DNA of 64,000 nt from Marinibacterium profundimaris (GTDB taxonomy: Bacteria; Pseudomonadota; Alphaproteobacteria; Rhodobacterales; Rhodobacteraceae). The notes beneath the pieces were generated by a model. It worked only from the letters and a program-made list of their open reading frames with translations. It searched no databases and had not been told where the DNA came from. This document shows, in pieces, positions 5,059 through 40,264 of this stretch. The first letter of the stretch is position 1; each line of letters starts with the position of its first letter. Both the position numbers and the translations under genes were made by a program. Where the stretch lies: the NCBI RefSeq assembly GCF_002210095.1, contig NZ_AQQR01000016.1, forward strand, positions 18,887-82,886. The letters run 5' to 3'.

Positions 5059-5074
5059 TCTAACAGACGTTAGA
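5059..5074. promoter_or_regulatory. Operator palindrome TCTAACAGACGTTAGA (site A)
   Basis: Perfect 6-bp arms TCTAAC/GTTAGA around a 4-bp spacer, in the divergent region between the tandem TetR gene (start 5049) and badH (start 5138). Close copies lie at 16623-16638, 29592-29607 and 40249-40264, each at the head of a catabolic operon. Its place beside the regulator gene makes it the likely autoregulatory operator. Confidence 0.8.
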
Positions 5075-5137
5075 ATACATCCGAGAGAGTGTCGAATCAA
5101 CTCTTTTCAAGGTGCAACGGAAGAGGAGGACCTCCAC

Positions 5138-5899
5138 ATGCGAGGATTGAGTGGAAAACGGGTCGTCGTGACCGGCGGTGGGAGCGGCATCGGCCGAGCG
5201 GTTTGCGAACGGTTCGGCGCAGAGGGCGCCGAAGTTGCCGTTTTCGATCTGAACAAGGATGGGGCGGATGAAACTGTCCGACTGATCATCGACGCGGGTG
5301 GAAAGGCCCAGGCCTTCAAAGCGGACATCACCGATCGTTCTCAGGTCGACATGGCAGTGGCCGCGTTCGAGGCCGGAGGCCCGATTGACGTGCTGGTGAA
5401 CAACGCCGGCTGGGACGTGATCAAACCGTTCCTCGATACCGATGCCGATCTTTGGAAAAAGGTCATCGACATCAATCTTTATGGCCCGCTCAACATGCAT
5501 CACGCGGTGCTTCCGGGCATGGTCAAGAACGGCAGCGGCCGCGTGGTCAATATCGCGTCCGACGCCGGACGCGTCGGATCATCCGGCGAGGCTGTGTATT
5601 CGGCCTGCAAAGGTGGCATCATCTCGTTTACCAAGACCGTGGCGCGCGAACTTGCACGCAATGGCATTCAATTGAACGCGGTCGCCCCCGGACCGACCGA
5701 CACGCCTCTGTTCGCGCAGGTTGCCGAAGGCGAGGCCGGTCAAAAGATCGCTGAGGGTCTCAAGCGGGCGATTCCGATGAAGCGCCTGGCGCAGCCGTCA
5801 GATTACCCGGGCATCATCTGTTTTCTGTCGTCCGACGACGCGGGATTCATCACCGGTCAGGTGATTTCGGTTTCGGGCGGCTTGTCCATGCACGGTTGA
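5138..5899 (+). CDS. badH: BadH-like SDR (2-hydroxycyclohexanecarboxyl-CoA dehydrogenase family)
   Basis: 253 aa SDR with cofactor motif TGGGSGIG near residue 12, NNAGWDVIKPF near residue 87, catalytic Ser in VNIASDAGRVGSSGEAVY and the YSACK Tyr/Lys pair. These signature stretches match what I recall of Rhodopseudomonas BadH, which oxidises 2-hydroxycyclohexanecarboxyl-CoA to the 2-keto compound with NAD+. The start is fixed by AAGAGGAGGA at 5121-5130, 7 bases before the ATG. It is transcribed divergently from the tandem TetR, with palindrome site A between them, and is followed by a terminator-like hairpin. BadI, the ring-opening partner, is not obvious in the window, so the exact substrate may differ. 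Confidence 0.82.
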   Translation: MRGLSGKRVVVTGGGSGIGRAVCERFGAEGAEVAVFDLNKDGADETVRLIIDAGGKAQAFKADITDRSQVDMAVAAFEAGGPIDVLVNNAGWDVIKPFLDTDADLWKKVIDINLYGPLNMHHAVLPGMVKNGSGRVVNIASDAGRVGSSGEAVYSACKGGIISFTKTVARELARNGIQLNAVAPGPTDTPLFAQVAEGEAGQKIAEGLKRAIPMKRLAQPSDYPGIICFLSSDDAGFITGQVISVSGGLSMHG

Positions 5900-5965
5900 A
5901 ACGCTGACAGCTGCGACGGAGACAAGGCGCTGCTGCCAAACCGTGCCAAGAGTTACTCCTCGACT

Positions 5966-5994
5966 GGCCGCGCCTTATGTGCGGCCCCTTTTTA
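5966..5994 (+). terminator. Rho-independent terminator after badH
   Basis: GGCCGC (5966-5971) pairs with GCGGCC (5981-5986) across a 9-base loop, followed by CCTTTTTATT. It lies 66 bases after the badH stop and just before the synthetase gene at 6012, which suggests badH is monocistronic. Confidence 0.6.
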
Positions 5995-6011
5995 TTGTAG
6001 AAAGGTTGCGA

Positions 6012-7949
6012 ATGTTTCAGCCAAGCTCTGAAATCCAGCGAACAAGCACGCTGACCGCTTTTCTGAATGACTGTGAGATTGACAGCTACGAGGAGCTCGT
6101 CGGCCTATCGAACGAAGAGCCCGAATGGTTCTGGGGCCGGATCATCGACCATGCCGGCATGCGGTTCGCGCAGCCTTACACCCGGTTGCGAGATATCTCC
6201 ACAGGGCCCGAATCGATCAGATGGGCCGTGGGAGGCACGTTGAATCTGACAGAAACCTGTCTTGACGCCCGAATTGCCGATGGCCTGGGCGACAAGACCG
6301 CAATCGACTGGGTCGGTGAAGACGGAAGCCGCCGTCGCTGGACCTACTTCGACCTTGCCGCCGAAGCCTCCCGCGTCGCCTCGGCCCTTGCCGCGCGCGG
6401 TGTAATGCCGGGTCAGGCGGTGGGCATTTGTATGCCGATGATCCCCGAAATCGAGGCCGCGCTTCTGGGTATCGCGCGGCTGGGCGCGGTTGCGGTACCG
6501 CTGTTCTCCGGCTTTGCGCCCCATGCCATCGTATCGCGCCTGAGCGATGCGGATGCCGTAGCGGTGTTGACAGCGGATGCCACACCCCGACGAGGCAAGC
6601 CGGTCTGGATGGAGGCGACCCTTGCCCAGGCTTTGACCGACGTACCATCGGTTCATACCGTTATCAGCCTGCGACGGTTCGGCGGTGCAGTGGCCGATCC
6701 GGTCCGCGATCTGGACTGGAGCGAAACCATAGGCCGCGCCAGTCCGGAGTTTGCCGCCGTTCCGGTCAAGGCCGAAGACACCTTTCTGATCGCCTATACT
6801 TCGGGCACCACCGGGCGGCCCAAGGGCGTCGTGCATACCCATTTGGGCGTGCAGGCGAAGGCCACGGCCGATATCCTGCTTTGTCTCGACATGAAACGGG
6901 ACGACCGGCACCTCTGGATGACCGACATGGGGTGGGTCATGGGACCGCTCACCCTATTGTCGGTGCTCTTGGCCGGTTCGACTCTGGTACTGGCCGAGGG
7001 CGCACCATCAATGTCCGGCGATCCCTTCAGGCTGCTGCGTCTTGCGTCCGAAATGGAGGTCACACATCTCGGCGTGGCCCCGACTCTGATACGGCAGTTC
7101 ATGACGCAGGATACGGAAACTTTGTCGGGCTACGACCTGTCGCCCCTGCGGATTGTCGCCTCGACCGGTGAACCTTGGACCGACGACGCCTGGCTCTGGC
7201 AGCTCGATCATATCTGCCGCCGCCGCGCCGTGCCGCTGAACATCTCGGGCGGGACCGAGCTTTTTGGCGCGATCCTGACCTCGACCGTGCTACACGAGAT
7301 CAAGCCCGGCGGATTTTCGGCCCAGGCACTTGGCGTCGGCGCCAAGGTGCTGCGGGAAAACGGCAGTGAAGCCGCGCCGGGCGAGGTGGGGGAACTGGTG
7401 GTGACTCAACCGCCTTTGGGTTTGACCCCGGCCATCCGGGGCGACCGCGAGCGCTACCTTGAAACCTATTGGTCCACCTTCCCGGGCATGTGGCGACACG
7501 GAGATTGGGTGCGCTGCGATCCGGACGGGACATGGTATATCCTGGGCCGGTCCGACGACACGCTGAACATCGCCGGCAAACGCATCGGCCCGCCCGAGAT
7601 TGAGGCGGCCCTGACCGAAACCGGAGAGGTGGTGGACGCCGCTGCCATTGCTGCACCCGACGATATCAAAGGCGTGGCCGTCGTCTGCGTCTGTGTGGCA
7701 GCCCAGGGCGTCACGCCTGACGCAGAGCTTGTGGAGCGGCTCAAGGATCGGGTCGGAGAGATCGTCTCGAAACCCTTCCGCCCGCGCGAGATCCACTTTG
7801 TCGAGGCCCTGCCCAAGACCCGCAGCATGAAAACCATGCGCCGGATCGTGCGCGCGGCCTTTCTGGGCGAAGATCCGGGCGATCTGTCGTCGATCAGCAA
7901 CCCGGAAACCATTCAACCCATCGCAGACCTGCAAAAGGAAAAGCCATGA
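6012..7949 (+). CDS. Acetyl-CoA synthetase-like acyl-CoA synthetase (AMP-forming)
   Basis: 645 aa AMP-forming ligase that activates a carboxylate to its CoA thioester with ATP. The length and N-terminal extension resemble ACS/acetoacetyl-CoA synthetase types. Motifs in order are P-loop YTSGTTGRPKG near residue 262, NISGGTE near residue 410, WRHGDW near residue 495, GRSDDTLNIAGKRI hinge near residue 512 and KTRSMKTMRR near the C-terminus. The last holds the catalytic, normally acetyl-regulated Lys, but Met replaces the usual Gly before it. I chose ATG 6012 (AAAGG upstream), because an earlier ATG at 5943 would translate through the terminator hairpin. The next gene starts on ATGA overlapping this stop. 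Substrate unknown. Confidence 0.85.
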   Translation: MFQPSSEIQRTSTLTAFLNDCEIDSYEELVGLSNEEPEWFWGRIIDHAGMRFAQPYTRLRDISTGPESIRWAVGGTLNLTETCLDARIADGLGDKTAIDWVGEDGSRRRWTYFDLAAEASRVASALAARGVMPGQAVGICMPMIPEIEAALLGIARLGAVAVPLFSGFAPHAIVSRLSDADAVAVLTADATPRRGKPVWMEATLAQALTDVPSVHTVISLRRFGGAVADPVRDLDWSETIGRASPEFAAVPVKAEDTFLIAYTSGTTGRPKGVVHTHLGVQAKATADILLCLDMKRDDRHLWMTDMGWVMGPLTLLSVLLAGSTLVLAEGAPSMSGDPFRLLRLASEMEVTHLGVAPTLIRQFMTQDTETLSGYDLSPLRIVASTGEPWTDDAWLWQLDHICRRRAVPLNISGGTELFGAILTSTVLHEIKPGGFSAQALGVGAKVLRENGSEAAPGEVGELVVTQPPLGLTPAIRGDRERYLETYWSTFPGMWRHGDWVRCDPDGTWYILGRSDDTLNIAGKRIGPPEIEAALTETGEVVDAAAIAAPDDIKGVAVVCVCVAAQGVTPDAELVERLKDRVGEIVSKPFRPREIHFVEALPKTRSMKTMRRIVRAAFLGEDPGDLSSISNPETIQPIADLQKEKP

Positions 7950-8800
7950 TCACTGTTTTCGGAGCCACGGGCACCACCGGCGCCCCTCTTGTCGATACGC
8001 TTATGGCAAAAGGCGCGACCGTGCGTGCTGTCACCAGCGACCCTTCCAGGCTCGATGCGCTAAAAGCCAAAGGATGCGAGGCGGTCGTTGCGAATTTCAC
8101 GGACCCTGCCGCGCTGGCGCGGGCCTGTGACGGGGCAGAAAAGATATACCTGGTCACGCCTGCCCATCTGGACATGCGTCAGTGGAAGGCGAATGTGATC
8201 GCGGCGGCCAAGACCGCGGGGGTGCGCCATGTTGTCGTGGCCACCGGGCTTGGCGCCTCGCCCAAGGCGGGGCTGACATTTGGGAAATGGCATTCCGAAA
8301 CCCAGGAACTGCTGAAGCAAAGCGGCCTTGACTGGACCTTCGTCCAGCCGACCTATTTCATGCAGAACCTGCTCTGGCAGGCCGGCAATATTGCAAAAGA
8401 TGGGGTCTATTACGACGATCTGGGCGGCCCTGTGGCCTGGGTCGACGCCCGCGACATCGCGGATGTCGCCGCCGAGGCGCTGACCGCTCCGGGGTACGAA
8501 GGCAAGGCTCTTGGTCTGACCGGGCCCGAAGCTCTTACCGGAGAAGATATCGCCGCCCTCCTGTCCAGGGTGACCGGGCGCACTGTCACCTGCGCACCCC
8601 TGTCGGCCGAAAATGCCAAGGCGGGCATGGTGGCTGGCGGAATGCAGGACGAGGTCGCCAGAGCCATGGTCGAATTGGCTTCCATCGCGCCCAAGGGCTA
8701 CCTTGCCGGCATCGAGACCACGGTCAGCGATGTGATGGGACGCCCGGCGCGCCGATTTGCCGATTTCGTCGCCGAGAACCGGGATGCTTTCGTCAAGTAA
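7946..8800 (+). CDS. NmrA-like NAD(P)-binding protein
   Basis: 284 aa atypical SDR. It starts with the Rossmann motif VFGATGTTGAPL and has VVVATGLGAS near residue 95 and VQPTYFMQNLL near residue 133. The classical YxxxK pair is absent. NmrA/SDR-a5 members include redox sensors and quinone reductases such as QorB. The gene is coupled to the upstream synthetase by an ATGA overlap and precedes an AraC regulator, so a sensor or small-molecule reductase role in this operon is possible. Function not assigned. Confidence 0.75.
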   Translation: MITVFGATGTTGAPLVDTLMAKGATVRAVTSDPSRLDALKAKGCEAVVANFTDPAALARACDGAEKIYLVTPAHLDMRQWKANVIAAAKTAGVRHVVVATGLGASPKAGLTFGKWHSETQELLKQSGLDWTFVQPTYFMQNLLWQAGNIAKDGVYYDDLGGPVAWVDARDIADVAAEALTAPGYEGKALGLTGPEALTGEDIAALLSRVTGRTVTCAPLSAENAKAGMVAGGMQDEVARAMVELASIAPKGYLAGIETTVSDVMGRPARRFADFVAENRDAFVK

Positions 8801-9509
8801 CCTGATGGCGCCGCCGCTTTATCTCGAACTGGCGCCGCCTGAGGAAGCGGCCAAACAGATCGACCATTTGTTCGTGTTCCGCGATACCGGTGTGCTGAGC
8901 GGTGGTGGACGCGGGCGGTTCGCAACCGACCTCTTTACCCTTTCGGTAACGCGCGACGACAGCGGCGGCGGGCGCGTATCGCTGGCAGAACCGCGCCCCT
9001 ATTTTTCGCCCCGCCCAAGGCCATTCCAGGGTGTCGTGGCCGGGCTGCGACTGTCGTCACGACCGCAGCGATTTCCCGACTCCACAGGGCTGGACATGCT
9101 GGCCTCAGAACTGGCCCGGATTCAGACCGGGGACGATGACCTGCCTGCGCTCATCGCGGTGCTTGACGGCCTTGCGAGAGACCTGCGCTTTGCCGCACCA
9201 ACCGGAGCTTACAGCGACCGGACCAAACGTCGAAAGGTGCGGGCGGAAACCGGCGTGTCGCGGCGGCGGCTTGCGACCTTGCGACGCTTTCGCCGGGCTC
9301 TCGGGCAGCTTGCGTCAAAGACCCTGCCGCTGAGCGATCTGGCGCTGGACGCCGGATATTACGATCAATCTCACTTGTCCGCCGCTTGCCGGATCTTCGC
9401 CGGCAAACCGCCCGGCGCGTTGCGCGCTCTGTCTATTCCGCGTCGTTTTGACCTTTTGCTACAAGATACGCGCCTCAAAGACCGCCTAAGATTGGTCATT
9501 GACGAATGA
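8784..9509 (+). CDS. AraC-family transcriptional regulator
   Basis: About 241 aa. The C-terminal quarter carries an AraC HTH: LRRFRRALGQL, then LSDLALDAGYYDQSHLSAAC and an arginine-rich tail typical of the second helix-turn-helix. The N-terminal part, rich in Pro and Arg (PRPYFSPRPRPF), resembles the DUF6597-like domain found in some AraC proteins, but this is uncertain. ATG 8784 overlaps the previous gene by 17 bases; ATG 8805 (MAPPLYLEL) is an equally good start 4 bases after that stop. It is co-directional with its neighbours and likely a local regulator. Target unknown. Confidence 0.75.
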   Translation: MLSSSNLMAPPLYLELAPPEEAAKQIDHLFVFRDTGVLSGGGRGRFATDLFTLSVTRDDSGGGRVSLAEPRPYFSPRPRPFQGVVAGLRLSSRPQRFPDSTGLDMLASELARIQTGDDDLPALIAVLDGLARDLRFAAPTGAYSDRTKRRKVRAETGVSRRRLATLRRFRRALGQLASKTLPLSDLALDAGYYDQSHLSAACRIFAGKPPGALRALSIPRRFDLLLQDTRLKDRLRLVIDE

Positions 9510-9530
9510 AATCGAAGAGGAAGACCCGCC

Positions 9531-9986
9531 ATGACACAATTCAAACCGAAAAACCCCGACTATGACGCACGCGTGCGCAACAGTTTCGATCGCCAGAAGG
9601 CAATGAACACGTTGGGGATCAGCATTGCCGAGTTGTTACCCGGCCGCATCGTTCTGGAAATGGCACATCAGGTTGCACTGACCCAGCAGCATGGGTTTTT
9701 GCATGCCGGAATCGTGTCGACAGCGCTGGACAGCGCCTGCGGATACGCGGCCTTTTCGCTGATGCCAGCGGACGCGGCAGTGTTGACGGCCGAATTCAAG
9801 ATCAACCTACTCAACCCGGCGGACGGCGCACGGTTTCGCTTCGTCGCTGACGTGGTGAAACCAGGCAGGACGCTGACCATATGCGAGGCGCGTGCCTATG
9901 CCGTGAAGGGCCAGGATGAAAAGCTCGTCGCAACGATGACCGGAACGCTCATGGCGCTGATCGGGCGGGCGGGGGTCGCGGACTGA
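9531..9986 (+). CDS. PaaI-type hotdog thioesterase
   Basis: 151 aa hotdog thioesterase with FLHAGIVSTALDSACGYAA near residue 58 (HAG replacing HGG, helix Asp retained) and LTAEFKINLLNPA near residue 86. A strong GAAGAGGAAG ribosome site precedes the ATG. Its last 25 codons are repeated as a diverged fragment at 12910-12984 on the far side of the tag/MarR/DoxX/GST block, which suggests that the intervening DNA was inserted at this gene's 3' end. Acyl-CoA substrate unknown. Confidence 0.85.
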   Translation: MTQFKPKNPDYDARVRNSFDRQKAMNTLGISIAELLPGRIVLEMAHQVALTQQHGFLHAGIVSTALDSACGYAAFSLMPADAAVLTAEFKINLLNPADGARFRFVADVVKPGRTLTICEARAYAVKGQDEKLVATMTGTLMALIGRAGVAD

Positions 9987-10284
9987 GCGCAACCCGGCCG
10001 CAGCACATCCGATCCGGGCGGCCGGGCCGATTATTCAGACAGCTGGATCAGCTGTTCCAGCGGCTCGCGACCTCGGCCAACCGTTTCCCGTAGGCTCGCG
10101 CGGTATCCAGATCGCCGCCAGCAGGTTCAGACCTGCCAAGCGGTAATGTTAGCCTTTAGCAGTGCGGTCGCCGATTGTCCGTCGTCAGGGTTTTTCGGAG
10201 AGCTGAGACTGTATCGTAACGGAGGATCTGGTTCGGTTTCTGTTCAAGTTTATGCTGCAGCGGCCTGATGCTGCAACCGTAATT
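9987..10284. other. Intergenic remnant DNA, no intact gene
   Basis: No open frame with a credible start. On the minus strand around 10060-10150 a frame reads LDTARAYGKRLAEVASRW before a stop, resembling the C-terminus of a flavodoxin/WrbA-type reductase. The match is too short to call. The stretch looks like decayed coding DNA at the edge of the island that ends at 12984. Confidence 0.4.
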
Positions 10285-11307: not shown

Positions 11308-11322
11308 ATCCAGCACATATCA

Positions 11323-13004: not shown

Positions 13005-14525
13005 TTAATCTGCGAGCCGCGCTTCTAGGACATGCCGCTGGACCTTTCCGCTGGTCGATCTGGGAAAATCCTCGAACGCGATGAAGCGAATTTCGCGCGG
13101 CCGTTTGTAGCCTGCGAGGTTGTCGCGGCACAAATTCATCAGCGCTTCGGCATCCGGCCCGTCCTTGCCGCGGGCGACAAAGGCCACCGGACTTTCGCCC
13201 CATTTCACGTCAAATGCCCGTACGACTGCGGCATCGACCACCCCGGGATGAGATAGAAGAACACGCTCGATCTCCGCAGGATAGACGTTCTCGCCGCCGG
13301 TCTTGATCAAGTATTTGGCCCGGTCCACAAAGTCGATGGTTCCGTCCGCATTGCGCCGGAACAAGTCGCCCATGTGGAAAAAGCCGTTGCGAAAGTCATG
13401 GGCATTGGCGTCGTCCGCGTTCCAGTACCCTGAAAACAATGTCGGACCCCGCACAGCCATTTCGCCTGGCGTTCCATCCGTCACTTCTTGGTCGTCGGGA
13501 TCGACGAGCCGAACCTCGCAAAGTGCGCTGATGCGCTTGGAAAGGCGGTCCGGAGTCACACCTGGCGCAATTAGATCGGCGGACCCCGGCGGCAGGCCGG
13601 TTTCGGTTGCGCCGAAGGAATTCAGATAGGGCGTGTGGAGAAGGGCTGTCAGTTCCGCGATCTGATGCGGCGGCACCAGATCGGCCATGGCGCCGCAAAC
13701 TTTGATACCCTTCAGCGGCAAAGGGTTGGCGCGTCGTTCTGCGATAAAGGCGTCCAGCGCACCGGGCATCATCACGAACCAGCCGATCCGGTGGCGCGAC
13801 AGAGCCTCGTTGATGACCGCAGGCTGCAAACCGTCAACCATCACCACGGTTCCGCCCCGCAGGACCGTCGCCAACCCATGATCGGTGGACGCCATGTGGA
13901 ACATTGGCGCCCAGGCGATAAACCCGTCGCCGGGGTCCAGCGCCAGCTGCGCCGCAAAAGCCATGGATCTGGCGATATGCGCGCGGTGGCTGATGAGCGC
14001 GCCCTTGGGCAGGCCCGTGGTCCCTGAGGTATAAAGGATCGTCAGACCAGCCTCTGGATCGTCGACCATGGTTCCGATGCGCGGGTCCGGTCCGGCCGCG
14101 GCAATGGCCGTTTCCAAATCCGGCCCGATAATCAGACAGGGCGTTGCCGCGACGGCCCGGTAAGCTTCTGAAAGGTCCGGTTCGACGACCGCGAGAACCG
14201 GCGCGACCAGATCTATGCAGTGCCGCAGTTCATCGGAAGCAAGCCGCCAGTTCAGACAGGCGACGATCGCGCCGATTCCCGCTGCGGCGAGTTCGACCTC
14301 CAGGTATTCAGAGCGGTTGTGCGACAGGATCGCAATCCTGTCGCCCGGCGCAACGCCCCTGGCCAGAAACACGGCAGCCAGACGATCGACCCGCTCCAGC
14401 AGCTCGGCATAGGTCAATTTCCTGCTGCCGTCCTCGATGGCCAGGGCGCGGGCGCAGTCTTGCGCGCGGGTTCGAAAGATCGAATACAGATCAGCGCGCC
14501 CCGCGCGGATGACGTCGGTCAGCAT
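13005..14525 (-). CDS. AMP-forming acyl-CoA synthetase (class I ligase)
   Basis: 506 aa ANL-superfamily ligase that makes an acyl-CoA via acyl-AMP. Motifs in order are LTILYTSGTTGLPKGALISH (P-loop, about residue 160), YLNSFGATETG (about 296), FHMGDLF (about 393), DRAKYLIKTGGENVYPAEIE (hinge, about 407) and STSGKVQRHVL with the catalytic Lys near the end. Length fits a medium-chain or aryl/alicyclic carboxylate CoA ligase. It is the second gene of a minus-strand pair after the FadH-like reductase (gap about 26 bases), so it probably falls under operator site B. Confidence 0.87.
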   Translation of the reverse strand: MLTDVIRAGRADLYSIFRTRAQDCARALAIEDGSRKLTYAELLERVDRLAAVFLARGVAPGDRIAILSHNRSEYLEVELAAAGIGAIVACLNWRLASDELRHCIDLVAPVLAVVEPDLSEAYRAVAATPCLIIGPDLETAIAAAGPDPRIGTMVDDPEAGLTILYTSGTTGLPKGALISHRAHIARSMAFAAQLALDPGDGFIAWAPMFHMASTDHGLATVLRGGTVVMVDGLQPAVINEALSRHRIGWFVMMPGALDAFIAERRANPLPLKGIKVCGAMADLVPPHQIAELTALLHTPYLNSFGATETGLPPGSADLIAPGVTPDRLSKRISALCEVRLVDPDDQEVTDGTPGEMAVRGPTLFSGYWNADDANAHDFRNGFFHMGDLFRRNADGTIDFVDRAKYLIKTGGENVYPAEIERVLLSHPGVVDAAVVRAFDVKWGESPVAFVARGKDGPDAEALMNLCRDNLAGYKRPREIRFIAFEDFPRSTSGKVQRHVLEARLAD

Positions 14526-14551
14526 GGTTTACCCCTTGCCCGGCCTTCGGT

Positions 14552-16585: not shown

Positions 16586-16622
16586 TTCGGTTCTCCTCCT
16601 CAAAACTGCACTTGATCTACAA

Positions 16623-16638
16623 TCTAACATTTGTTAGA
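16623..16638. promoter_or_regulatory. Operator palindrome TCTAACATTTGTTAGA (site B)
   Basis: Same 6-4-6 palindrome as site A; here the arms extend to 8 bp (AATCTAAC/GTTAGATT, 16621-16640). It is centred between the divergent starts 16585 (minus) and 16681 (plus) and could control both operons at once. Confidence 0.8.
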
Positions 16639-16680
16639 TTTTTTTGGAAAGAAGATTTTCGCTCATGGGGAGGAGCACCG

Positions 16681-18638: not shown

Positions 18639-18647
18639 GGACGAAAC

Positions 18648-19808: not shown

Positions 19809-19834
19809 TCGCTCTGCCCGACATGGAGAACGAC

Positions 19835-22830: not shown

Positions 22831-22840
22831 GGAGCGAACC

Positions 22841-24847: not shown

Positions 24848-24851
24848 TGAA

Positions 24852-25811: not shown

Positions 25812-25823
25812 GGGAGAATGAAG

Positions 25824-27532: not shown

Positions 27533-27535
27533 CCG

Positions 27536-28699: not shown

Positions 28700-28710
28700 A
28701 GGCCAGGGTT

Positions 28711-29591: not shown

Positions 29592-29607
29592 TCTAACATC
29601 TGTTAGG
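29592..29607. promoter_or_regulatory. Operator palindrome TCTAACATCTGTTAGG (site C)
   Basis: Matches sites A and B at 11 of the 12 arm positions. It lies 66 bases before a 28-codon leader ORF and 154 bases before the ABC ATPase gene. Confidence 0.75.
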
Positions 29608-29760: not shown

Positions 29761-30540
29761 ATGACCACGAATAACGGGCACGTATCGTCACCGCTTGCGG
29801 TGCGTGGTGCAACTTTGAAATTTGGCGGCGTGACGGCGCTCGACGATGTGAGCATCTCCGTGGCCGACGATGAATTGCTTGCAATCATCGGCCCGAATGG
29901 TGCCGGAAAAACATCACTTCTGAACGTTACCGCGGGCTTCTATCGTCCACAGCAGGGCCGTGTCGAATTGTCCGGGCAGGACGTGACCGGCCTGCGTGTT
30001 GACCAGATCGCGCGACGCGGTCTGGCGCGGACGTTTCAGGGCACCCATCTTTTTGCCGGGCAGACCGTGGTAGAAAACATCATGATCGGTCGTCACATGC
30101 TGATGAAATCGAATGTGATCCAGGCCTTTTTCCAGTTCGGTCCCGTGATGCGCGAAGAAACGGAACATCGAGAAGCCGCAGAAGAGATTATCGACTTTCT
30201 AGAGATTGAGGCAATTCGCAACCGGCCCGTGGGGACGTTGGGATATGGGTTGCGAAAGCGTGTCGATCTGGGCCGTGCATTGGCGCAGGAACCATCGATC
30301 CTCCTGATGGATGAACCGATGGCCGGCATGAACTCGGAAGAGAAAGAAGACCTGGCGCGCTTCATTCTCGATGTGCGCGAGGCACGCAAGATTCCAGTGG
30401 TTCTGGTCGAACACGACATGGGCGTCGTGATGGACCTTGCCGACCGGATCGTGGTGCTTGATTTCGGGCGGGTCATCGCCGAAGGCACCCCGGAAGAAAT
30501 CCAGAACGACCCGGCTGTGATCAAGGCGTATCTGGGGTAG
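29761..30540 (+). CDS. Branched-chain amino acid-type (LivG-like) ABC transporter ATP-binding protein
   Basis: 259 aa ATPase with Walker A GPNGAGKTS near residue 44, Q-loop RTFQGTHLF near residue 90, a variant signature GTLGYGLRKRVDLGRAL (LivG-type, not LSGGQ), Walker B ILLMDEPMAGM and H-loop VEHDMGVVMDLA. It would drive uptake of a hydrophobic or carboxylated substrate through LivH/LivM-type permeases. No permease, periplasmic binding protein or LivF gene exists in the window. The expected downstream genes are replaced by the IS5-family element, so this ATPase may be orphaned. Probably under operator site C. Confidence 0.9.
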   Translation: MTTNNGHVSSPLAVRGATLKFGGVTALDDVSISVADDELLAIIGPNGAGKTSLLNVTAGFYRPQQGRVELSGQDVTGLRVDQIARRGLARTFQGTHLFAGQTVVENIMIGRHMLMKSNVIQAFFQFGPVMREETEHREAAEEIIDFLEIEAIRNRPVGTLGYGLRKRVDLGRALAQEPSILLMDEPMAGMNSEEKEDLARFILDVREARKIPVVLVEHDMGVVMDLADRIVVLDFGRVIAEGTPEEIQNDPAVIKAYLG

Positions 30541-30544
30541 CGAA

Positions 30545-32605
30545 ATGGCTAAACAACGGACAGCAATGGCCTTTTCGGACCCGGCGGTGACACATAGCGA
30601 AACCCTGCCGCAGGTTTTGCTCGCGCGAGCGACATCCACGCCGACCAATCTCGCCGAACGGCACAAGCGCCTGGGCATCTGGCGAGAATTCACCTGGGCG
30701 GATGTTCTTGACAGGGTTCGTGCCCTGGCTCTCGGGTTGGAGAACCTGGGCTTGTCGGCTGGCGAATCCGTCATGACGATCGGCGAAAACGAACCCGAAC
30801 ATTTCTGGGCTGAATACGCCGTCCAGTCGTTAGGCGGCAAAGTCCTGTCTGTCTATCCGGATCAAAACGCCGAAGAAATTCTGTATCTGGCCGAAGACTC
30901 GCAAACGCGGATTTTTCTGGCGCAGGATCAGGAGCAGGTCGATAAATGCATCGAGATCGCGGGCAAGTACTCGGGCGCCCTGGCGATCGTTTACTGGGAT
31001 GACTCCGGTCTATGGGGCTATGATCATCCCCTTTTGCATTCGTTTGAAAGTGTGAGCGCGGCAGGGCGTCAGATCCACGCCAAGGAACCCGCCAGATTTG
31101 AAAAACACGTAAAACGTGGACGGGCGGACGATACCGCCTTGCTGTCCTATACCTCGGGGACCACGGGAAAACCCAAGGGCGTTGTCATCAGCCATCGCTA
31201 CCTGTTCGACAACTGCTCGCGGGTGATGGGGGCAATAGAAATCGCGCCCGGCACCGAATACCTGACCTACATTTCGCCTGCCTGGGTAACAGAGCAGATA
31301 TTCGGCCTGTCGATCGGTTTGATTGCGCCCATGGTCGTCAATTTCCCTGAAGGCCCTGAAGACGTACTGACCAACATTCGCGAACTGGCGGTTGACGCTC
31401 TGGTGTTCAGTCCGCGCCAGTGGGAAAATCTTGCCTCCATCGTGCAGGCCCGAATGCTGGGTGCGGGCAAGATCCGTACGGCGATGTACAATTGGGGGAT
31501 GGAGGTCGGCTGCGCCGTTCATGTCGAACGGCTGGAAGGGCGAAAGCCCAGCCTTGCAAAGCGCCTGCAGCTTCCCTTCGCCGAGGCGCTCGTGCTGCAT
31601 CACCTGCGCGACAATCTTGGCCTTGGTAAGGCCAAAAATGCAATGAGCGGCGGCGCCCTGATGGCGCCAGACGTTTTTCGTATGTTCCACGCCATGGGCG
31701 TCAAACTGCGCAACGTGTATGGCGCGACCGAAATCGGCCTTCTGACCGCGCATGTCGGCGAAAGCTATCAGCTGGAAACCAGCGGCAGTTGGATGCAAAG
31801 CAACAAGAACTACGGCGAACCGCTGGAATACAGGGTTTCGGACGACGGGGAGCTACAGGTACGTGGCGGATCAGGCTTCGGTGGCTATCACGGCAAGCCC
31901 GAGAAGACCGCCGAGGAGCTGACCGAAGACGGTTGGTACAAAACCGGTGACGCGGTGTCGATGACCGACGATGGCGAACTCTTGTTCTTTGACCGTGTCA
32001 AGGACATGCGCCGCCTGGCAAACGGTCACAGCTATCCGCCGCAATTCATCGAAACGCGGTTGCGGTATAGCCCCTTCGTCAAGGACCTCATGACATTGGG
32101 CGACGAACGCCGGAACTTCGTCAGCGCGCTTATCAATATAGATATGGAAGTTCTCGGCCGTTGGGCTGAAGAGAACAAGATTAATTTCTCGACCTATACC
32201 GATCTCTCGCAGAAACCAGAAATTCTGGACCTTATCAAAGGCGAAGTAGCGCGCATCAATGAGCTTTTGCCCGACGGTTCGCGCGTGGCACGGTTTGCGA
32301 ACTTCCCAAAGGAACTCGACCCGGACGAAGGCGAGTTGACCCGCAGCCGGAAACTGCGGCGGACCTTTCTGGAAGAGCGATATGCGAAACTTGTCGATGC
32401 GATTTATGGCGGTGATGCACAGACCGACCTTGAAATCGCGGTGACCTATCAGGATGGCCGCCAGGTGACTCTGTTGCGCAAATCGGGTGATGGCCGAGGT
32501 TCCCCTTTCCCCGGACGGACTTATCCCACAGCTTCCGTGACGGGTATGCCGAGCGCGGTGTATCCGTTCAGGACGGCGATGCGGACCTGGAGTTCAGCGA
32601 CCTGA
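30545..32605 (+). CDS. Long-chain FadD-like acyl-CoA synthetase, 3' end replaced by IS sequence
   Basis: AMP-forming ligase of the long FAA1-like type, starting 4 bases after the ABC ATPase stop. Motifs are LLSYTSGTTGKPKGVVISHR near residue 199, NVYGATEIG near residue 392, WYKTGDAVS and LTRSRKLRRTFLEERY near the C-terminus. Host-derived coding ends near base 32466 (about codon 640). The remaining roughly 46 codons run through the IS left end and are foreign. Intact relatives end about 10-20 residues further on, so catalytic regions are complete and activity may survive. Pairing with a LivG-type ATPase suggests uptake-coupled activation. Confidence 0.85.
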   Translation: MAKQRTAMAFSDPAVTHSETLPQVLLARATSTPTNLAERHKRLGIWREFTWADVLDRVRALALGLENLGLSAGESVMTIGENEPEHFWAEYAVQSLGGKVLSVYPDQNAEEILYLAEDSQTRIFLAQDQEQVDKCIEIAGKYSGALAIVYWDDSGLWGYDHPLLHSFESVSAAGRQIHAKEPARFEKHVKRGRADDTALLSYTSGTTGKPKGVVISHRYLFDNCSRVMGAIEIAPGTEYLTYISPAWVTEQIFGLSIGLIAPMVVNFPEGPEDVLTNIRELAVDALVFSPRQWENLASIVQARMLGAGKIRTAMYNWGMEVGCAVHVERLEGRKPSLAKRLQLPFAEALVLHHLRDNLGLGKAKNAMSGGALMAPDVFRMFHAMGVKLRNVYGATEIGLLTAHVGESYQLETSGSWMQSNKNYGEPLEYRVSDDGELQVRGGSGFGGYHGKPEKTAEELTEDGWYKTGDAVSMTDDGELLFFDRVKDMRRLANGHSYPPQFIETRLRYSPFVKDLMTLGDERRNFVSALINIDMEVLGRWAEENKINFSTYTDLSQKPEILDLIKGEVARINELLPDGSRVARFANFPKELDPDEGELTRSRKLRRTFLEERYAKLVDAIYGGDAQTDLEIAVTYQDGRQVTLLRKSGDGRGSPFPGRTYPTASVTGMPSAVYPFRTAMRTWSSAT
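32467..32484 (+). repeat. IS left terminal inverted repeat
   Basis: GACTCTGTTGCGCAAATC, two mismatches from the complement of the right end. Confidence 0.75.
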
Positions 32606-34655: not shown

Positions 34656-35459
34656 TCAACAGACTCTAGGATCATGACCTTTCTTTCCCAGATGCCGAAC
34701 AATTTCTTCACGCATGATCCTAACAATCTCGTTCTCGGATCGCTGGATGACATCCGTTGGGGCACCAACCCCGACGGCAAAAAGGCGGGAACTCTGGTGG
34801 CTGGGAAAGGGCATGGAGATCAATCCGGCGCCTTTGACGACTTGATCGGTTGAAAGATAGTACCCCTTGGCACGGGTCTCGGTCAACGAGGCGACGAAGG
34901 CCTTCACGTCCACCGCCGGTTTGTCGGGCGCACGATAGGCATTGATCTTTCGTAACAGGCGGCACACTTCTTCATCGCTGAAGCGGCTCATCAGAACCCG
35001 CCCCACCCCCGAAGTCCCCAGCGGACGTCGCGTGCCGAGTGAAATGTGGTGGATCGGCGACTTCTTCGGACGGATTACTTGGACATACTCAGCTTCGTCA
35101 CCGTTCTTTGTTCCCAGGACAACGACATGCTGCGTCCGTTGCGCGATCGCCTTGAGCAGCCGCTGGATGATGCCTTCGCCGAACAGATCCGGGTTCATCC
35201 ATGAGCCCAGAAGAGGGACGCGCTCAGTGGGGAAGTAGTTCTTGTTTCGGGCATCGTGCGTCAGGAAGCCGAGGCTGACCATGCTCTTCAAGAGCGCCGA
35301 GGTACTCGATTGCGGATACCCCAGCTTCTTGGATACTTCCACGACCGTTAGCGGCCGTCGCACCTCGTCGAAATATACCAACGTTTCACAGGTGCGGGCG
35401 ACTGATTTCACGACGTGGTCCCCGCCGGTCTTCGCCAGCGCCTGATGCGCGTCCTCCAT
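34656..35459 (-). CDS. IclR-family transcriptional regulator
   Basis: 267 aa. An N-terminal winged helix (VVKSVARTCETLVYFDE, then VVEVSKKLGYPQSSTSALLKSMVSLGFL, about residues 18-68) is followed by an IclR effector domain (VQVIRPKKSPIHHISLGTRRPLGTSGVGRVLM near residues 125-155 and STDQVVKGAGLISMPF). ATG 35459 is preferred because GGGAG then has a 6-base gap; ATG 35465 is adjacent to it. It is one of two IclR genes in the window and may act on the adjacent TRAP remnant or on the GCACATATGTG sites (inference). A half-conserved palindrome (TCTGTC-N4-GTTAGA, 35525-35540) lies 66 bases upstream. Confidence 0.88.
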   Translation of the reverse strand: MEDAHQALAKTGGDHVVKSVARTCETLVYFDEVRRPLTVVEVSKKLGYPQSSTSALLKSMVSLGFLTHDARNKNYFPTERVPLLGSWMNPDLFGEGIIQRLLKAIAQRTQHVVVLGTKNGDEAEYVQVIRPKKSPIHHISLGTRRPLGTSGVGRVLMSRFSDEEVCRLLRKINAYRAPDKPAVDVKAFVASLTETRAKGYYLSTDQVVKGAGLISMPFPSHQSSRLFAVGVGAPTDVIQRSENEIVRIMREEIVRHLGKKGHDPRVC

Positions 35460-35599
35460 GATCATCTCCCAGCATACTATTATATGAACAGCATTCCGAT
35501 ATAAGAATGATCGCGTATGCGGTTTCTGTCAACTGTTAGAAAATCGTAGAAGGCTCGCCGCATACTCTCAGGGGGTCGGGAACATTTCGGGCTCGTTTG

Positions 35600-37714
35600 T
35601 CAGTGGCCGCCTCGCTTTGTGGGGATGATGACGCCATCAGCGGCCACGGCGCCCTGGCCACTGGGCCCGACGATCAACGGGTTCACATCAATGGTCTCAA
35701 GCGCTGCCCCGTGATAGGCGGCAAAGGCCGACAGGCGCGCAAGGGCGTCGGCGAGCGCGCCGATGTCGCGTTCGGGCGCCCCCCGGAATGCGTCCAGCAG
35801 TTTTCGACCGTGGATTTCGTCGATCATGCGGCGCGCTTCGGCGGGACCGAAAGGAGCAACCCGGAAGGACACGTCTCCCAGCGCCTCGACCAGCACGCCG
35901 CCCAGACCGAACATGACCACCGGGCCGAACGCCGGATCCTGGGTCACACCCAGTATGGCCTCCAGCCCAGGTGCTGCCTGTTCCGCCACGACCAGACCGT
36001 CGATTCGCGCATCGGGCGCTTTCTCGGACGCCAGTTCCAGAATGCGCGCTCCGGCTGAGCGGACCTCTTCGACCGAGCGCAGGTTCAGCGCCACGCCACC
36101 GATATCGGATTTATGCAGGATGTCGGGCGAGGCGATCTTCAACACGATCGGAAAGCCCATCTCCTGCGCCGCCTCGGCTGCCGCCTCCGGAGTCCTGGCC
36201 AGGGTTTCGCGCACGATCCCGATGCCGGCCTCGGCAAGCAGCGCCTTGGCCTCGATCTCGTTCACCATGCCGTCCGGCAACGGCGACAGGTCGGACAGTT
36301 CGGGTATCGGGTCATGTTCGCCGGCCCGCGCGAAGGACCTGGCGAAATAGCGCAATGCGGCCATCGCACGGACCGCGCGTGTCGGTTCCTCGAACACGAT
36401 GAACCCCGACTTTTCATATGCGGCACGACCCTCGGGTTCGGTCAGCGAACAGAACAGCATCGGCCGGCCAGGAAACTTCTCGCGGATGCGCTCCAGCCCG
36501 GTCCGGATGGCTTCGTTCAGGTCGGCGACAAGACCGACCGTGGACATGAAGATGATGGCTCCGTCGATTTCGCCGTCGCCAAACAACACATCCATGTTGG
36601 TTTCCAGCAGGTCGATCTGGTTGACCAGCTGCGCCGTCACATCGACCGGGTTTCGGACACCTGCGAAAGGCAGCACCTCTTTTAGTTTTTTCTGCGCGTG
36701 ATCGGGAAGCGCGGGCACATCCAGTTTCAGTTTCTCGGCTTCGTCGGCCATCAGCACCCCGACGCCGCCGGACACCGTCACAAGACCCAGCCGGTCACCC
36801 TGCATCATCGAACCGGATTCGGCGCAGGCATAGGTCACATCGAACATTTCGTCGACCGATTGCGCCCGGTAGACGCCGTATTGCCGAAAGGCCGAGTCAT
36901 AGACCGCGTCGGACCCCGCCAGCGAGGCGGTATGCGATTGCGCGGCCTCGGCACCGACCGCGCTGCGGCCGACCTTCATCATGACCACCGGCTTTTCGCG
37001 TGCGCGCGCCAGTTCAAGGGCCTCGACCAGCCTGTCGCGGTCGGTCGCGCCTTCGAGGTATCCCATGATTACGCGGGTTTCGTCATCCTGCGCGCAATAG
37101 GCCACCGCATCGGCGAAATCGACGTCGCAGGAATTGCCCGTCGTCGCCCAGAGGTTCACACCAAGTCCGCGCATCCTGACCAGCGTCATGCAATACGACC
37201 CGAAGGCGCCGCTCTGGCTGACGATCGACACGCCGCCAGGCTTGGGCAGGTGCTTTTCGACCCCCGGTGTGAAGGTGGCGTAAAGATTGTGGCGCACATT
37301 GGCGATGCCAAGGCAGTTCGGCCCGACAAGCCGCATACCCCCTTCGCGCGCGATATCCACCATGCGCGCCTGAAGCGCGGTGCCTTCGGCATCAACCTCG
37401 GAAAACCCCGAGCTGAAGATCACCGCCCCCCGCACGCCGCGGGCCGCGCATTGCTCGACCGCTTGAACCGCCAACGGCGCGGGCAACGCGATCACCGCCA
37501 GATCCGGGGTCGTCGGGGCCTCGGAGATCGACGGATAGGCCGTCAAACCCTGCACCTCGGGCGACTTCGGATTTATCGGCAGGATCGGGCCGTCGAACCC
37601 GTGACGTATCAGAAAATCCACCGGCCGTCCGCCGATGCGCTTGGGGTCACTCGACGCGCCGATCACGGCAACAGAACGAGGGGCGAAAATGGCATCCATT
37701 CCGTCAATTCGCAT
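35600..37714 (-). CDS. ADP-forming acyl-CoA synthetase (fused alpha-beta, NDP-forming)
   Basis: 704 aa NDP-forming acyl-CoA ligase. Residues 1-460 hold the CoA-binding/ligase part (SVAVIGASSDPKRIGG, RLVGPNCLGIANV, VSQSGAFGSYCM and SHTASLAGSDAVYDSAF with the phosphorylated His). Residues 480-700 hold an ATP-grasp domain (LAEAGIGIVRETLARTPEAA, FPIVLKIASPDILHKSDIGG, FGPVVMFGLGGVLVEALGDV). It makes acyl-CoA from acid, CoA and ATP with ADP and Pi, reversibly. AAAGGAAG precedes the ATG. It is the third gene after CaiB and an ACAD, all minus strand, downstream of operator site D. Confidence 0.88.
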   Translation of the reverse strand: MRIDGMDAIFAPRSVAVIGASSDPKRIGGRPVDFLIRHGFDGPILPINPKSPEVQGLTAYPSISEAPTTPDLAVIALPAPLAVQAVEQCAARGVRGAVIFSSGFSEVDAEGTALQARMVDIAREGGMRLVGPNCLGIANVRHNLYATFTPGVEKHLPKPGGVSIVSQSGAFGSYCMTLVRMRGLGVNLWATTGNSCDVDFADAVAYCAQDDETRVIMGYLEGATDRDRLVEALELARAREKPVVMMKVGRSAVGAEAAQSHTASLAGSDAVYDSAFRQYGVYRAQSVDEMFDVTYACAESGSMMQGDRLGLVTVSGGVGVLMADEAEKLKLDVPALPDHAQKKLKEVLPFAGVRNPVDVTAQLVNQIDLLETNMDVLFGDGEIDGAIIFMSTVGLVADLNEAIRTGLERIREKFPGRPMLFCSLTEPEGRAAYEKSGFIVFEEPTRAVRAMAALRYFARSFARAGEHDPIPELSDLSPLPDGMVNEIEAKALLAEAGIGIVRETLARTPEAAAEAAQEMGFPIVLKIASPDILHKSDIGGVALNLRSVEEVRSAGARILELASEKAPDARIDGLVVAEQAAPGLEAILGVTQDPAFGPVVMFGLGGVLVEALGDVSFRVAPFGPAEARRMIDEIHGRKLLDAFRGAPERDIGALADALARLSAFAAYHGAALETIDVNPLIVGPSGQGAVAADGVIIPTKRGGH

Positions 37715-37737
37715 GGGTCTTCCTTTGATACTCTAAA

Positions 37738-38904
37738 CTAGTAGGATTTCGGCAGGCCGAGCGCATGTTCCGCGATGAACGACAGCACCAGTTGCGGGGT
37801 GACCGGCGCGATGCGGAACAGGATGGCTTCCCGCACAAGCCGCTCGACATGGTATTCCTTGGCATAGCCGAAACCGCCGAAGGTAAGCTGCGCGGTCTGC
37901 GTCGCCTTCACCGCCGCTTCGCCCGCCAGGTATTTGCCTGCGTTGGCTTCGTTTCCGCAGGGCTTGCCGGCATCGTAAAGCGCGCCGGCGTTCATCGCCA
38001 TGAGGTTGGCGGCTTCCAGCTCGGCCCAGCAGGCGGCCAGCGGGTGCTGCACACCCTGGTTCTGTCCGATCGGCCTGCCAAAGACGACACGCTCATTGGC
38101 GTAATCCGCCGCACGCCGAAGCGCGTTGCGCCCGATGCCCACCGCTTCGGCGGCGACAAGCACCCTTTCGGGATTCAGCCCGTGCAAGATCTGGCGAAAG
38201 CCCTGACCTTCCTCGCCGATCAGATCTTCGGCCGGGATCGGCAGCCCGTCGATGAACAGCTCGTTTGAATCGACGCACTTGCGACCCATCTTCTCGATCT
38301 CGCGCACCGTCACGAACGTCCGATCAAGATCGGTGTAGAACAGGCTCAGGCCTTCGGTCGGTTTTTTGACCTCTTCAAGCGGGGTGGTGCGCGCCAGAAG
38401 CAGGATCTTGTCGGCCACCTGGGCGGTCGAAATCCAGACCTTCTGCCCATGTACGACATAGCGGTCGCCCTGACGCACGGCGCGGGTTTTCAGCTTGGTC
38501 GTGTCGAGGCCGGTCGTCGGTTCGGTGACACCGAAACAGGCCCGTTGCTCGCCGGCCACCAGTGGCGGAAGATAGGTCTTCTTCTGGTCCTCAGTGCCGA
38601 ACTTGACGACCGGATTCAGGCCGAAGATGTTCATATGGATCGCCGAGGCGGCGCTGTTGCCGCCCCCGGACTCTGCGATCGCCTGCATCATGATCGCAGC
38701 GTCGACAATGCCAAGTCCGGCGCCGCCGTAGGCTTCGGGGATGGCGATTCCCAGCCAGCCATCGCGGGCCAGCTTCTGGTGCAATTCGTGCGGGAAGCCG
38801 CCTTCGCGATCCCGGTTCAGCCAGAACTCGTCGTCGAACTCTTCGCAAATCCGCAGGACGGCATTGCGGATTCCCTGCTGATCGGATGTCATCTGATAGG
38901 TCAT
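37738..38904 (-). CDS. Acyl-CoA dehydrogenase (APV...SY C-terminal subtype)
   Basis: 388 aa ACAD with IPEAYGGAGLGIVDAA near residue 54, GVTEPTTGLDTTKLKTRAV, HGQKVWISTAQ, ERVVFGRPIGQNQGVQHPLA and LTFGGFGYAKEYHVERL. The C-terminus reads IAPVTPQLVLSFIAEHALGL, with no YEGT/Glu segment. Very similar in plan to the ACAD at 27536. TTGAGGAGAAC precedes the ATG. Middle gene of a minus operon with CaiB and an ADP-forming ligase, consistent with activation by CoA transfer followed by desaturation (inference). Confidence 0.87.
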   Translation of the reverse strand: MTYQMTSDQQGIRNAVLRICEEFDDEFWLNRDREGGFPHELHQKLARDGWLGIAIPEAYGGAGLGIVDAAIMMQAIAESGGGNSAASAIHMNIFGLNPVVKFGTEDQKKTYLPPLVAGEQRACFGVTEPTTGLDTTKLKTRAVRQGDRYVVHGQKVWISTAQVADKILLLARTTPLEEVKKPTEGLSLFYTDLDRTFVTVREIEKMGRKCVDSNELFIDGLPIPAEDLIGEEGQGFRQILHGLNPERVLVAAEAVGIGRNALRRAADYANERVVFGRPIGQNQGVQHPLAACWAELEAANLMAMNAGALYDAGKPCGNEANAGKYLAGEAAVKATQTAQLTFGGFGYAKEYHVERLVREAILFRIAPVTPQLVLSFIAEHALGLPKSY

Positions 38905-38934
38905 GGTGTTCTCCTCAAATCTCGCAGTCCGCTC

Positions 38935-40149
38935 TCAGCGTTTCGGTTCGGCTACAGTGCCGTTTTCGGTGAGCTTGTCGATCTTCCCGGCGTCGTATCC
39001 GAGCTCTTCCAGCACTGCGCGGCTGTCGGCGCCCAGCTCTCTGCGCCCGAGCCAGCGCAGCCGTCCCGGCGTCTTGTCCAGCTTTGGCACGGGTCCGACG
39101 ACCTTGGTGTCGTCGCCCTCGACCCCGACGATGTCGCCGCGCGCGGCGATCTGCGGATCGGCAAGGATGTCATCGACGTCATAGACCATCGCCGCCACGG
39201 CATCGTGGGCCTGGAAGATGTCAATCGCCTTCTGCGCGTCATGCTGTGCCACAAATGCGCCGAGACGGTCCACAATCTCGTCCATGTGCTCCGCGAAGCC
39301 ATCGAGGCTTTGGAATTGCGGCTGTTCCGCCCATTCCTTTCCGCCCGCGGCTTCCAGAAGCCGCCGCCCGGTCGCCGCACTCCCTGCGCTGATTGTGACC
39401 CATTTCCCGTCCCTGGCGCGAAACACCCCCGCCGGGGCGTAGGAATTGGGTGCCTGAAGTCCGTTTCGGTCAACCGGTAGCCCCGCGCCGGTTCGCGTCG
39501 GAACGTGATAGTCGATCAGGCGCAACAGCGGCTCGAAGATGGCCAGGTCCACCACCTGGCCCCTGGCGCTGCCGTTCTGCACCGCATGAAGCGCCATCAT
39601 CGCGCCGTAGGCCGCCATCAGGCCGGTGGTCGAATCCGCGGCGGGAAAGCCGGGGTGCATCGGCGCGTTGTCGGCAAAGCCGGTGATGTGCGCCAGTCCG
39701 CTCATGGCCTCGCCGGCCCGACCGAAACCCGGCCACGAGGAACGCGGCCCGGTCTGGCCATAGCCCGAGATCCGCACGATCACCAGATCGGGATTCCAGC
39801 CATGCAGAACCTCTGGCGCCAATCCCGCCCTTTCAAGCACGCCGGGGCGGAAGTTTTCGATAAGAACCTGCGCGTTTTCGACCAAGCGGCGCAGAACCTC
39901 GCGGCCGTCTTCGGTTTTCCAGTCCAAGGCAACCAGTCGCTTGTTTCGGGCCAGCGTCTTCCACCACACACCGACGCCATCCTTGGCGCGCGCGCTCAGA
40001 ACCCGCAGCATGTCGCCCTGCCCCGGCCGTTCGATCTTGATCACATCGGCGCCGAAATCGGAGAGCAGAGCGCCGCACATCGGCGCGGCAATCACATGCC
40101 CCATTTCAATCACCCTGAGATCGCTCAGCGGCCCGTCTGTTATCTTCAC
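38935..40149 (-). CDS. CaiB/BaiF family CoA-transferase (family III)
   Basis: 404 aa family III CoA-transferase. It begins LSDLRVIEMGHVIAAPMCGA, with DFGADVIKIERPGQGD, NKRLVALDWKTEDGREVL, LIENFRPGVLERAGL, IVRISGYGQTGP and AADSTTGLMAAYGAM, where Asp is the likely thioester-forming catalytic residue. It moves CoA between carboxylates without ATP, or acts as a racemase in some relatives. It starts at GTG 40149 with GGGAG 8 bases upstream. First gene of the minus operon; operator site D lies 100 bases upstream and is shared with the divergent plus operon. Confidence 0.88.
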   Translation of the reverse strand: MKITDGPLSDLRVIEMGHVIAAPMCGALLSDFGADVIKIERPGQGDMLRVLSARAKDGVGVWWKTLARNKRLVALDWKTEDGREVLRRLVENAQVLIENFRPGVLERAGLAPEVLHGWNPDLVIVRISGYGQTGPRSSWPGFGRAGEAMSGLAHITGFADNAPMHPGFPAADSTTGLMAAYGAMMALHAVQNGSARGQVVDLAIFEPLLRLIDYHVPTRTGAGLPVDRNGLQAPNSYAPAGVFRARDGKWVTISAGSAATGRRLLEAAGGKEWAEQPQFQSLDGFAEHMDEIVDRLGAFVAQHDAQKAIDIFQAHDAVAAMVYDVDDILADPQIAARGDIVGVEGDDTKVVGPVPKLDKTPGRLRWLGRRELGADSRAVLEELGYDAGKIDKLTENGTVAEPKR

Positions 40150-40248
40150 TCGGTAGTCTCCCAGATTGTCATTTCTCGGTCGTCAAGCCCTAACCTCCGG
40201 GTCCAGCGCCCTCAGTCTCATCGGAACCTAAATCCATTGCGAGAACAA

Positions 40249-40264
40249 TCGAACGCCCGTTAGA
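40249..40264. promoter_or_regulatory. Operator palindrome TCGAACGCCCGTTAGA (site D)
   Basis: Same 6-4-6 layout as sites A-C with one arm mismatch (TCGAAC for TCTAAC). It lies between divergent starts 40149 (minus) and 40308 (plus). Confidence 0.65.

Follow-up and report, generated by a model that had tools for sequence, protein, structure and literature searches.

A predicted palindromic operator for a double TetR regulator of catabolic genes in Marinibacterium profundimaris

Introduction

What reads the palindrome TCTAAC-N4-GTTAGA, which recurs at the heads of catabolic operons in Marinibacterium profundimaris, and how many genes does it govern? We address this question for a 64,000-nucleotide stretch of the genome (contig C8, positions 18887-82886; hereafter the window), part of a 6.15 Mb (6152 kb) assembly in 60 contigs, in which a sequence-only reading had proposed a four-site regulon and placed one site beside the gene of a tandem, or double, TetR regulator. 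The refined palindrome, TCTAACRNNYGTTAGA, is probably the operator of the double TetR encoded beside position 5059; this protein is predicted to repress, besides its own gene, about 75 genes of predicted catabolic function in about 18 predicted units. Positions are those of the window unless a contig is given; relatives are named by genome numbers (G), their loci by locus numbers (L).

The palindrome in the window and the genome

The four sites of the sequence-only reading stand where it placed them—those at 5059 and 16623 are exact and those at 29592 and 40249 carry one mismatch—and its account of operon heads, divergent gene pairs and a site at the double TetR gene is likewise correct and conserved in relatives. 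We followed synteny with tblastn searches of genome stretches from five relatives (G161, G204, G355, G189 and G131). The operators in the window, including one that we add at 35525, and the regulator gene are as follows.

5059..5074, operator TCTAACAGACGTTAGA, exact match, between the double TetR gene (minus strand) and a badH-like short-chain dehydrogenase/reductase (SDR) gene (plus strand)
3649..5013, minus strand, double (tandem) TetR of 454 amino acids (aa) with two TetR_N and two TetR_C_24 domains; putative start codon at 5013
16623..16638, operator TCTAACATTTGTTAGA, between a FadH-like gene (minus strand) and an acyl-coenzyme A (acyl-CoA) dehydrogenase gene (plus strand); identical in G161, G204, G355 and G189
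29592..29607, operator TCTAACATCTGTTAGG, upstream of an ATP-binding cassette (ABC) ATPase/ligase unit; unchanged in G161 and G204, while G355 has the exact consensus
35525..35540, additional operator TCTGTCAACTGTTAGA, two mismatches, upstream of an IclR regulator gene; outer N4 positions purine (R) and pyrimidine (Y), as described below
40249..40264, operator TCGAACGCCCGTTAGA, between a CaiB unit (minus strand) and an acyl-CoA synthetase unit (plus strand); TCGAACAGCCGTTAGA in G355

We scanned the genome for TCTAACN4GTTAGA with up to 2 mismatches, using the pattern read backwards as a control and taking chance expectations from a first-order Markov model of the window or genome and from one simulated half-genome, scaled up. 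The window holds 2 exact sites and 4 with at most one mismatch, against 0.0002 and 0.013 expected per 64 kb. Genome-wide there are 22 places with at most two mismatches (5 exact, 9 with at most one, 13 with two); the Markov model predicts 0.017 exact places and 1.23 within one mismatch, and the scaled simulation gives 0, 4 and 36. All 5 exact places, and all 9 with at most one mismatch, fall on contigs C8 and C13, which make up 153 kb of 6152 kb (2.5% of the genome); the chance of 9 in 9 is about 4e-15 if places are random. The two-mismatch places are divided, with 5 of 13 on these contigs and 8 elsewhere. The many random hits that the sequence-only reading had named as a danger to its proposal did not appear: no exact or one-mismatch site lies outside C8 and C13. 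Our argument is carried by position, exact matches and conservation, with mismatch counts excluded.

The claim that the sites share a geometry and little else proved wrong. Motif statistics were taken from 119 distinct sites with at most one mismatch (from the window, own-contig stretches, 80 named loci and 20 stretches of relatives), many of which are orthologous and hence not independent. In 118 of the 119, the outer positions of the N4 are R and Y, giving TCTAACRNNYGTTAGA, or TCTAACR-NN-YGTTAGA with A/T-rich flanks; the "N4" is not free. Among the 22 places, which were found without this rule, it holds for 13 of 14 on C8 and C13 and for 1 of 8 elsewhere (Fisher p 0.0004). In alignments of orthologous promoters the 16-mer is better kept than its flanks.

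A further two-mismatch place in the window (34584-34599) was set aside, as it has C..G instead of R..Y and no counterpart in the stretches read from relatives. The sequence there, TCTGACCAGGGTCAGA, is a perfect inverted repeat with the right geometry but not the motif, and it is the only one of the places on C8 or C13 that breaks the R..Y rule.

The double TetR and its link to the palindrome

The regulator beside 5059 holds two complete TetR units in one polypeptide, the mark of double TetR repressors: PF00440 (TetR_N) matches two of its stretches (121.8 bits against a cutoff of 24), as does PF17932, a TetR-type ligand-binding/dimerisation domain. The 120 homologues listed, of 281, have the same Pfam domains (domain copies uncounted) and are 343-486 aa long. 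Its halves are 43% identical and stem from one internal duplication. The AlphaFold model matches TetR structures over both halves; its best whole-chain structural match is Mce3R (PDB 9b7y), over 361 residues at 16-17% structural identity, and in this confident predicted model both units form one omega-shaped TetR-like body as in 9b7y. A start codon at 5013 is likely. In the long frame, the ATG of codon 18 is lost at two homologous loci (L067 and L099), and two others (L095 and L097) have stops after that codon; L097 also has no ATG at codon 30, and its start must therefore lie elsewhere. At L112, L114 and L115 (8001-10075), the double TetR matches span about 2.07 kb, versus 1.3-1.5 kb, which reflects either an insertion or two matches.

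The distribution of this protein follows that of the palindrome. We scanned 394 genomes of the family for exact sites and for the double TetR (called at E<=1e-60, four candidates scored per genome). An exact site occurs in 21 of them, 11 with four to seven sites and 10 with one; the double TetR occurs in 11, and these are precisely the 11 with four or more exact sites.

The link extends well beyond the family survey. Of the named double-TetR loci (the best 80 of 196 found), 78 carry the operator at the start of the double TetR gene with no more than one mismatch, and in 59 of the 78 it is exact; such loci reach down to 53% identity and include Hoeflea, Labrenzia, Mesorhizobium and Bradyrhizobium. 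The nearest named genome in this set, judged by the double TetR, is Salipiger pentaromativorans P9 (98%); cultured roseobacters with the cluster include Sedimentitalea nanhaiensis and Pseudooceanicola batsensis. The two loci with no site at the start are L101, where a contig end cuts the locus, and L110 (Acidocella). In the Acidocella genome (G402), the double TetR gene instead stands last in a unit that has an exact site at its head, 2.6 kb upstream.

The 10 genomes with one exact site form a mixed group: in five, an unrelated TetR gene and an efflux-adaptor-like gene point away from each other, in a sixth the adaptor is seen (all these names by eye), in G131 the site is at a regulon promoter, and three others are without placement. 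An exact copy of the palindrome, TCTAACATATGTTAGA, separates the unrelated TetR gene from the efflux-adaptor-like gene (by eye) at L021, L024, L027, L033 and L034 (site at 1501), where another TetR may recognise almost the same operator.

Promoter layout and proposed mechanism

Three predicted promoters, with functions assigned from sequence, overlap the operators at 5059 and 16623.

5072..5100, minus strand, predicted double TetR promoter: -35 TTGATT (5100-5095), 17 bp, -10 TATTCT (5077-5072); overlaps the operator
5049..5076, plus strand, predicted badH-like promoter: TTGCAA (5049-5054), 16 bp, TAGAAT (5071-5076); operator inside
16612..16640, plus strand, predicted promoter: TTGATC, 17 bp, TAGATT; spacer and -10 contain the operator

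The operator of the double TetR gene begins inside the TATTCT box; in the 16623 and badH promoters, the spacer is taken up by the operator, whose final bases make up the -10 (TAGATT and TAGAAT, respectively). This layout would suit a repressor that blocks RNA polymerase.

We propose that each half of the double TetR reads one half-site, such that one polypeptide would cover one palindrome, the half-site centres being 10 bp, or one helical turn, apart. The protein would sit on the promoter spacer or -10 and block RNA polymerase, would repress its own gene, and would be released by an acyl-CoA intermediate of the pathway. The palindromic operator may have been retained in the duplicated protein because the two reading helices stayed nearly identical. 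A bolder reading, possible but less likely than not, is a natural single-chain TetR, from one gene duplicated and fused, that would act as a one-molecule switch on its palindrome, with pairs bridging operators 82 bp apart, as at the thiolase promoter, to loop the DNA, and with regulator and operators moving together between bacterial orders while keeping a regulon of about 75 genes.

A second TetR and other explanations

The same cluster encodes a single TetR (C8:7365-7994, 209 aa), about 11 kb upstream of the window and outside the view of the earlier reader; it is the chief rival candidate for the regulator. It has its own site, CTAAC-N4-GTTAG, in which both outermost bases are changed (G000, G161, G204, G355, G189 and G044). 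A match at E<=1e-60 was obtained in 10 of the 11 genomes with the double TetR, the tenth of which (G354) groups with neither protein in the tree. In G131, a distant single TetR (L141, G131:C70:4453-4965; 35-36% identical) accompanies three regulon sites, with no double TetR found.

Several observations weigh against assigning the palindrome to the double TetR. The single TetR has almost the same reading helix (AGSIYYHF), in addition to its variant site, and because it is matched in 10 of the 11 genomes, co-occurrence alone cannot separate the two proteins. G131 keeps its three sites at regulon promoters, and its assembly, in which no double TetR was found, is in 260 contigs; the cleanest case, G402, is a metagenome-assembled genome. 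The one-mismatch count in the window's genome is weak (9 versus 6 for the backwards control), and the two-mismatch count does not stand out (22 versus 145). Of the predicted promoter boxes at the double TetR, TTGATT is found in 57 and TATTCT in 41 of the 78 named loci with a site, and both are intact in only 35; repression rather than activation is read from the promoter overlap.

One alternative is that the two TetRs share their operators: the double TetR would be the master repressor, and the single TetR would add a second input responsive to another intermediate. This is compatible with the double TetR as the reader, and we regard it as a serious possibility that falls short of being probable. 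Each gene adjoins a site of this kind and the reading helix is common to both proteins; however, the single TetR is missing at the orthologue level from four genomes. A second layer of control at the variant site of the single TetR is possible.

It is unlikely that the single TetR is the main reader, with the double TetR a co-regulated passenger or modulator. The shared reading helix, the linkage to the cluster, the variant site just upstream of the single TetR gene in six genomes and the situation in G131 speak for it. We sought the single TetR at E<=1e-70 in the 15 genomes of distant loci, and only 11 have an orthologue-level match; G402, G405, G406 and G408 have none and nonetheless keep the double TetR and its sites. 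The matches in G402 are the double TetR's own halves only, while G405, G406 and G408 do have other TetR frames, 36-43% identical. Moreover, the single TetR's own site is off at the outermost base pair in all six genomes, whereas that of the double TetR is exact in most of the loci that have it. It is barely credible that the palindromes arose by chance or merely reflect DNA structure in a catabolic island: genomes of this type do contain a fair number of matches with one or two mismatches, but the excess of exact sites, their clustering on two contigs, their retention at orthologous promoters and the near-universal R..Y rule are all at odds with it. The double TetR is our preferred reader of the palindrome.

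Extent and conservation of the regulon

The operons that the sequence-only reading assigned to its regulon are indeed headed by sites; its four sites, however, cover about one third of the set, and the regulon is about three times larger and extends beyond the 5-45 kb block. The remaining sites lie elsewhere on C8 and on C13.

C8:8021, upstream of the single TetR gene; two mismatches, synteny-supported
C8:10267 (10267-10282) and C8:10349 (10349-10364), between divergent thiolase and hexapeptide protein genes; two mismatches at 10349
C8:17513, at an enoyl-CoA hydratase unit with AtuA and an acyl-CoA carboxylase/acyl-CoA dehydrogenase unit
C13:17365, 21026, 37240 and 39703, synteny-supported sites; 39703 has two mismatches here and is exact in G355

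In total, 13 sites (nine on C8 including the window, four on C13) head 18 predicted transcription units with 76 genes; unit borders follow from strand and spacing in our own gene calls, and some members were named by eye. The genes include acyl-CoA dehydrogenases, hydratases, three biotin-dependent acyl-CoA carboxylases, ligases, thiolases, CaiB transferases, electron-transfer flavoprotein and ABC-transport genes. The units and single genes in the window are listed below.

5138..9986, plus strand, predicted unit: badH-like SDR, AMP-dependent ligase, NmrA-like, AraC-type helix-turn-helix (HTH) and thioesterase-like (by eye) genes
13005..16585, minus strand, predicted unit: FadH-like reductase, AMP-dependent ligase
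16681..29550, plus strand, predicted 11-gene unit: acyl-CoA dehydrogenases, enoyl-CoA hydratase (ECH), PaaK-like ligase, biotin-dependent carboxylase beta and alpha, HMG-CoA-lyase-like (HMG, 3-hydroxy-3-methylglutaryl), SDR, citryl-CoA-lyase-like and dehydratase-like genes
29761..32605, plus strand, predicted unit: LivG-like ABC ATPase (by eye), AMP-binding ligase
34656..35465, minus strand, IclR-family regulator
35600..40149, minus strand, predicted unit: CaiB/CoA-transferase III, acyl-CoA dehydrogenase, ADP-forming acyl-CoA synthetase-like
40332..45657, plus strand, predicted unit: split acyl-CoA synthetase (two genes), MaoC, acyl-CoA dehydrogenase, Ltp-type thiolase, small protein

The badH model match of the badH-like SDR falls below the model's curated cutoff, and the small protein of the last unit is a DUF35-like guess from position. 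After the ligase gene (32605-34650), G204 and G355 have genes weakly matching transporter and enzyme genes of C13, where the window has a short fragment resembling a solute-binding protein of tripartite ATP-independent periplasmic (TRAP) type (by eye)—an apparent replacement or deletion relative to G204 and G355. Further downstream (48790-50492) is a CoA-transferase-like pair with no operator found in front of it; among solved structures, the larger subunit has matches to alpha subunits of CoA-transferases and to glutaconate CoA-transferase, and it presumably resembles IpdA.

Each site sits at the same promoter in those relatives that keep the genes and were read there, with 35525 and 40249 checkable in G355 only; at 35525 the identical 16-mer precedes the IclR orthologue in G355, the sole relative read that has it. 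The exception is G189, where the second site of the thiolase pair is absent at up to two mismatches. Sites stay with their genes after rearrangement: in G402, 7 of 7 sites head homologues of regulon genes, in rearranged operons. Two-mismatch matches outside the matched promoters occur in the relatives' stretches at G204:2505317, G355:4608 and G189:116046. At the thiolase promoter, the two operators are 82 bp apart in G000, G161, G204, G355 and G044 and 83 bp in G131; other pairs occur in G061 (78 bp apart, promoter unaligned) and in G405 (82 bp apart at another promoter). The sample includes one more genome of this genus, G239, which lacks both the double TetR and any exact site, and the set is found in only 11 of 394 family genomes; for these reasons we consider the cluster patchy and probably mobile.

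The regulon genes are predicted to break down branched or ring-shaped acids. The geranyl-CoA (Atu) pathway was considered but is not favoured: AtuA is present, but two of the three carboxyltransferase subunits (C8:11235-12842 and window 21223-22830) were set against solved structures, and both come closer to methylcrotonyl- and acetyl-/propionyl-CoA enzymes than to geranyl-CoA carboxylase. Sterol side-chain breakdown was also considered, given an acyl-CoA dehydrogenase like Tcur3483 and the Ltp-type thiolase; ring-cleavage genes were not sought systematically.

Comparison with known systems

In kind, the system is a TetR regulon; what is unusual is the duplicated single-chain regulator with its predicted palindromic operator. 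The closest parallel is Mce3R of Mycobacterium tuberculosis, an autoregulated double TetR repressor of genes for lipid and cholesterol metabolism, reported in 2024 as the first double TetR structure (PMC11667970). It is described as two distinct TetR sequences fused together, and its subfamily as an infrequent one. Two unlike HTHs bind two 25-bp asymmetric sites 53 bp apart, for which the authors propose looping (PMC11667970). Both proteins carry two TetR units in one chain, and Mce3R is the best whole-chain structural match to the double TetR; by sequence the double TetR is not closer to it, since single TetRs such as 4mxm and 2ibd outscore 9b7y in both sequence searches. The proteins differ in that the double TetR has similar halves from one internal duplication and a predicted palindromic operator, whereas the Mce3R sites are non-palindromic. 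The Mce3R sites lie 78 bp centre to centre versus 82 bp at the thiolase promoter, a likeness that is suggestive only.

KstR2, FadR (Bacillus) and AibR are single TetR repressors released by acyl-CoA, and differ from the double TetR in this respect. AtuR, a regulator of acyclic terpene utilisation in Pseudomonas, is also a single TetR; it resembles our system in that the TetR belongs to a cluster containing AtuA and genes for an acyl-CoA carboxylase. Its operator consists of AGCAAGCGCTTGG inverted repeats (PMC9973270) and is unlike TCTAAC and the conserved operator found here, TCTAACRNNYGTTAGA. PsrA, FadP and LiuQ head TetR regulons of fatty or branched acid degradation in Proteobacteria and are treated as ordinary TetRs, with LiuQ and FadP given as unique to betaproteobacteria among the regulators studied; the available portion of that account has neither a TCTAAC operator nor a double TetR (PMC5343134). 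In the open-licence literature we found nothing on the TCTAACRNNYGTTAGA operator or on alphaproteobacterial double TetRs.

Significance

Because Mce3R binds an asymmetric site, the fusion of TetR units may or may not entail loss of the palindrome. The double TetR family described here would be a counter-case to Mce3R, arisen by internal duplication in bacteria that are not known to be pathogens, with a predicted operator defined to the base and many natural copies. The logic of a single-chain repressor thereby becomes directly testable, and the predicted operators provide a genome-wide map of an uncharacterised catabolic pathway.

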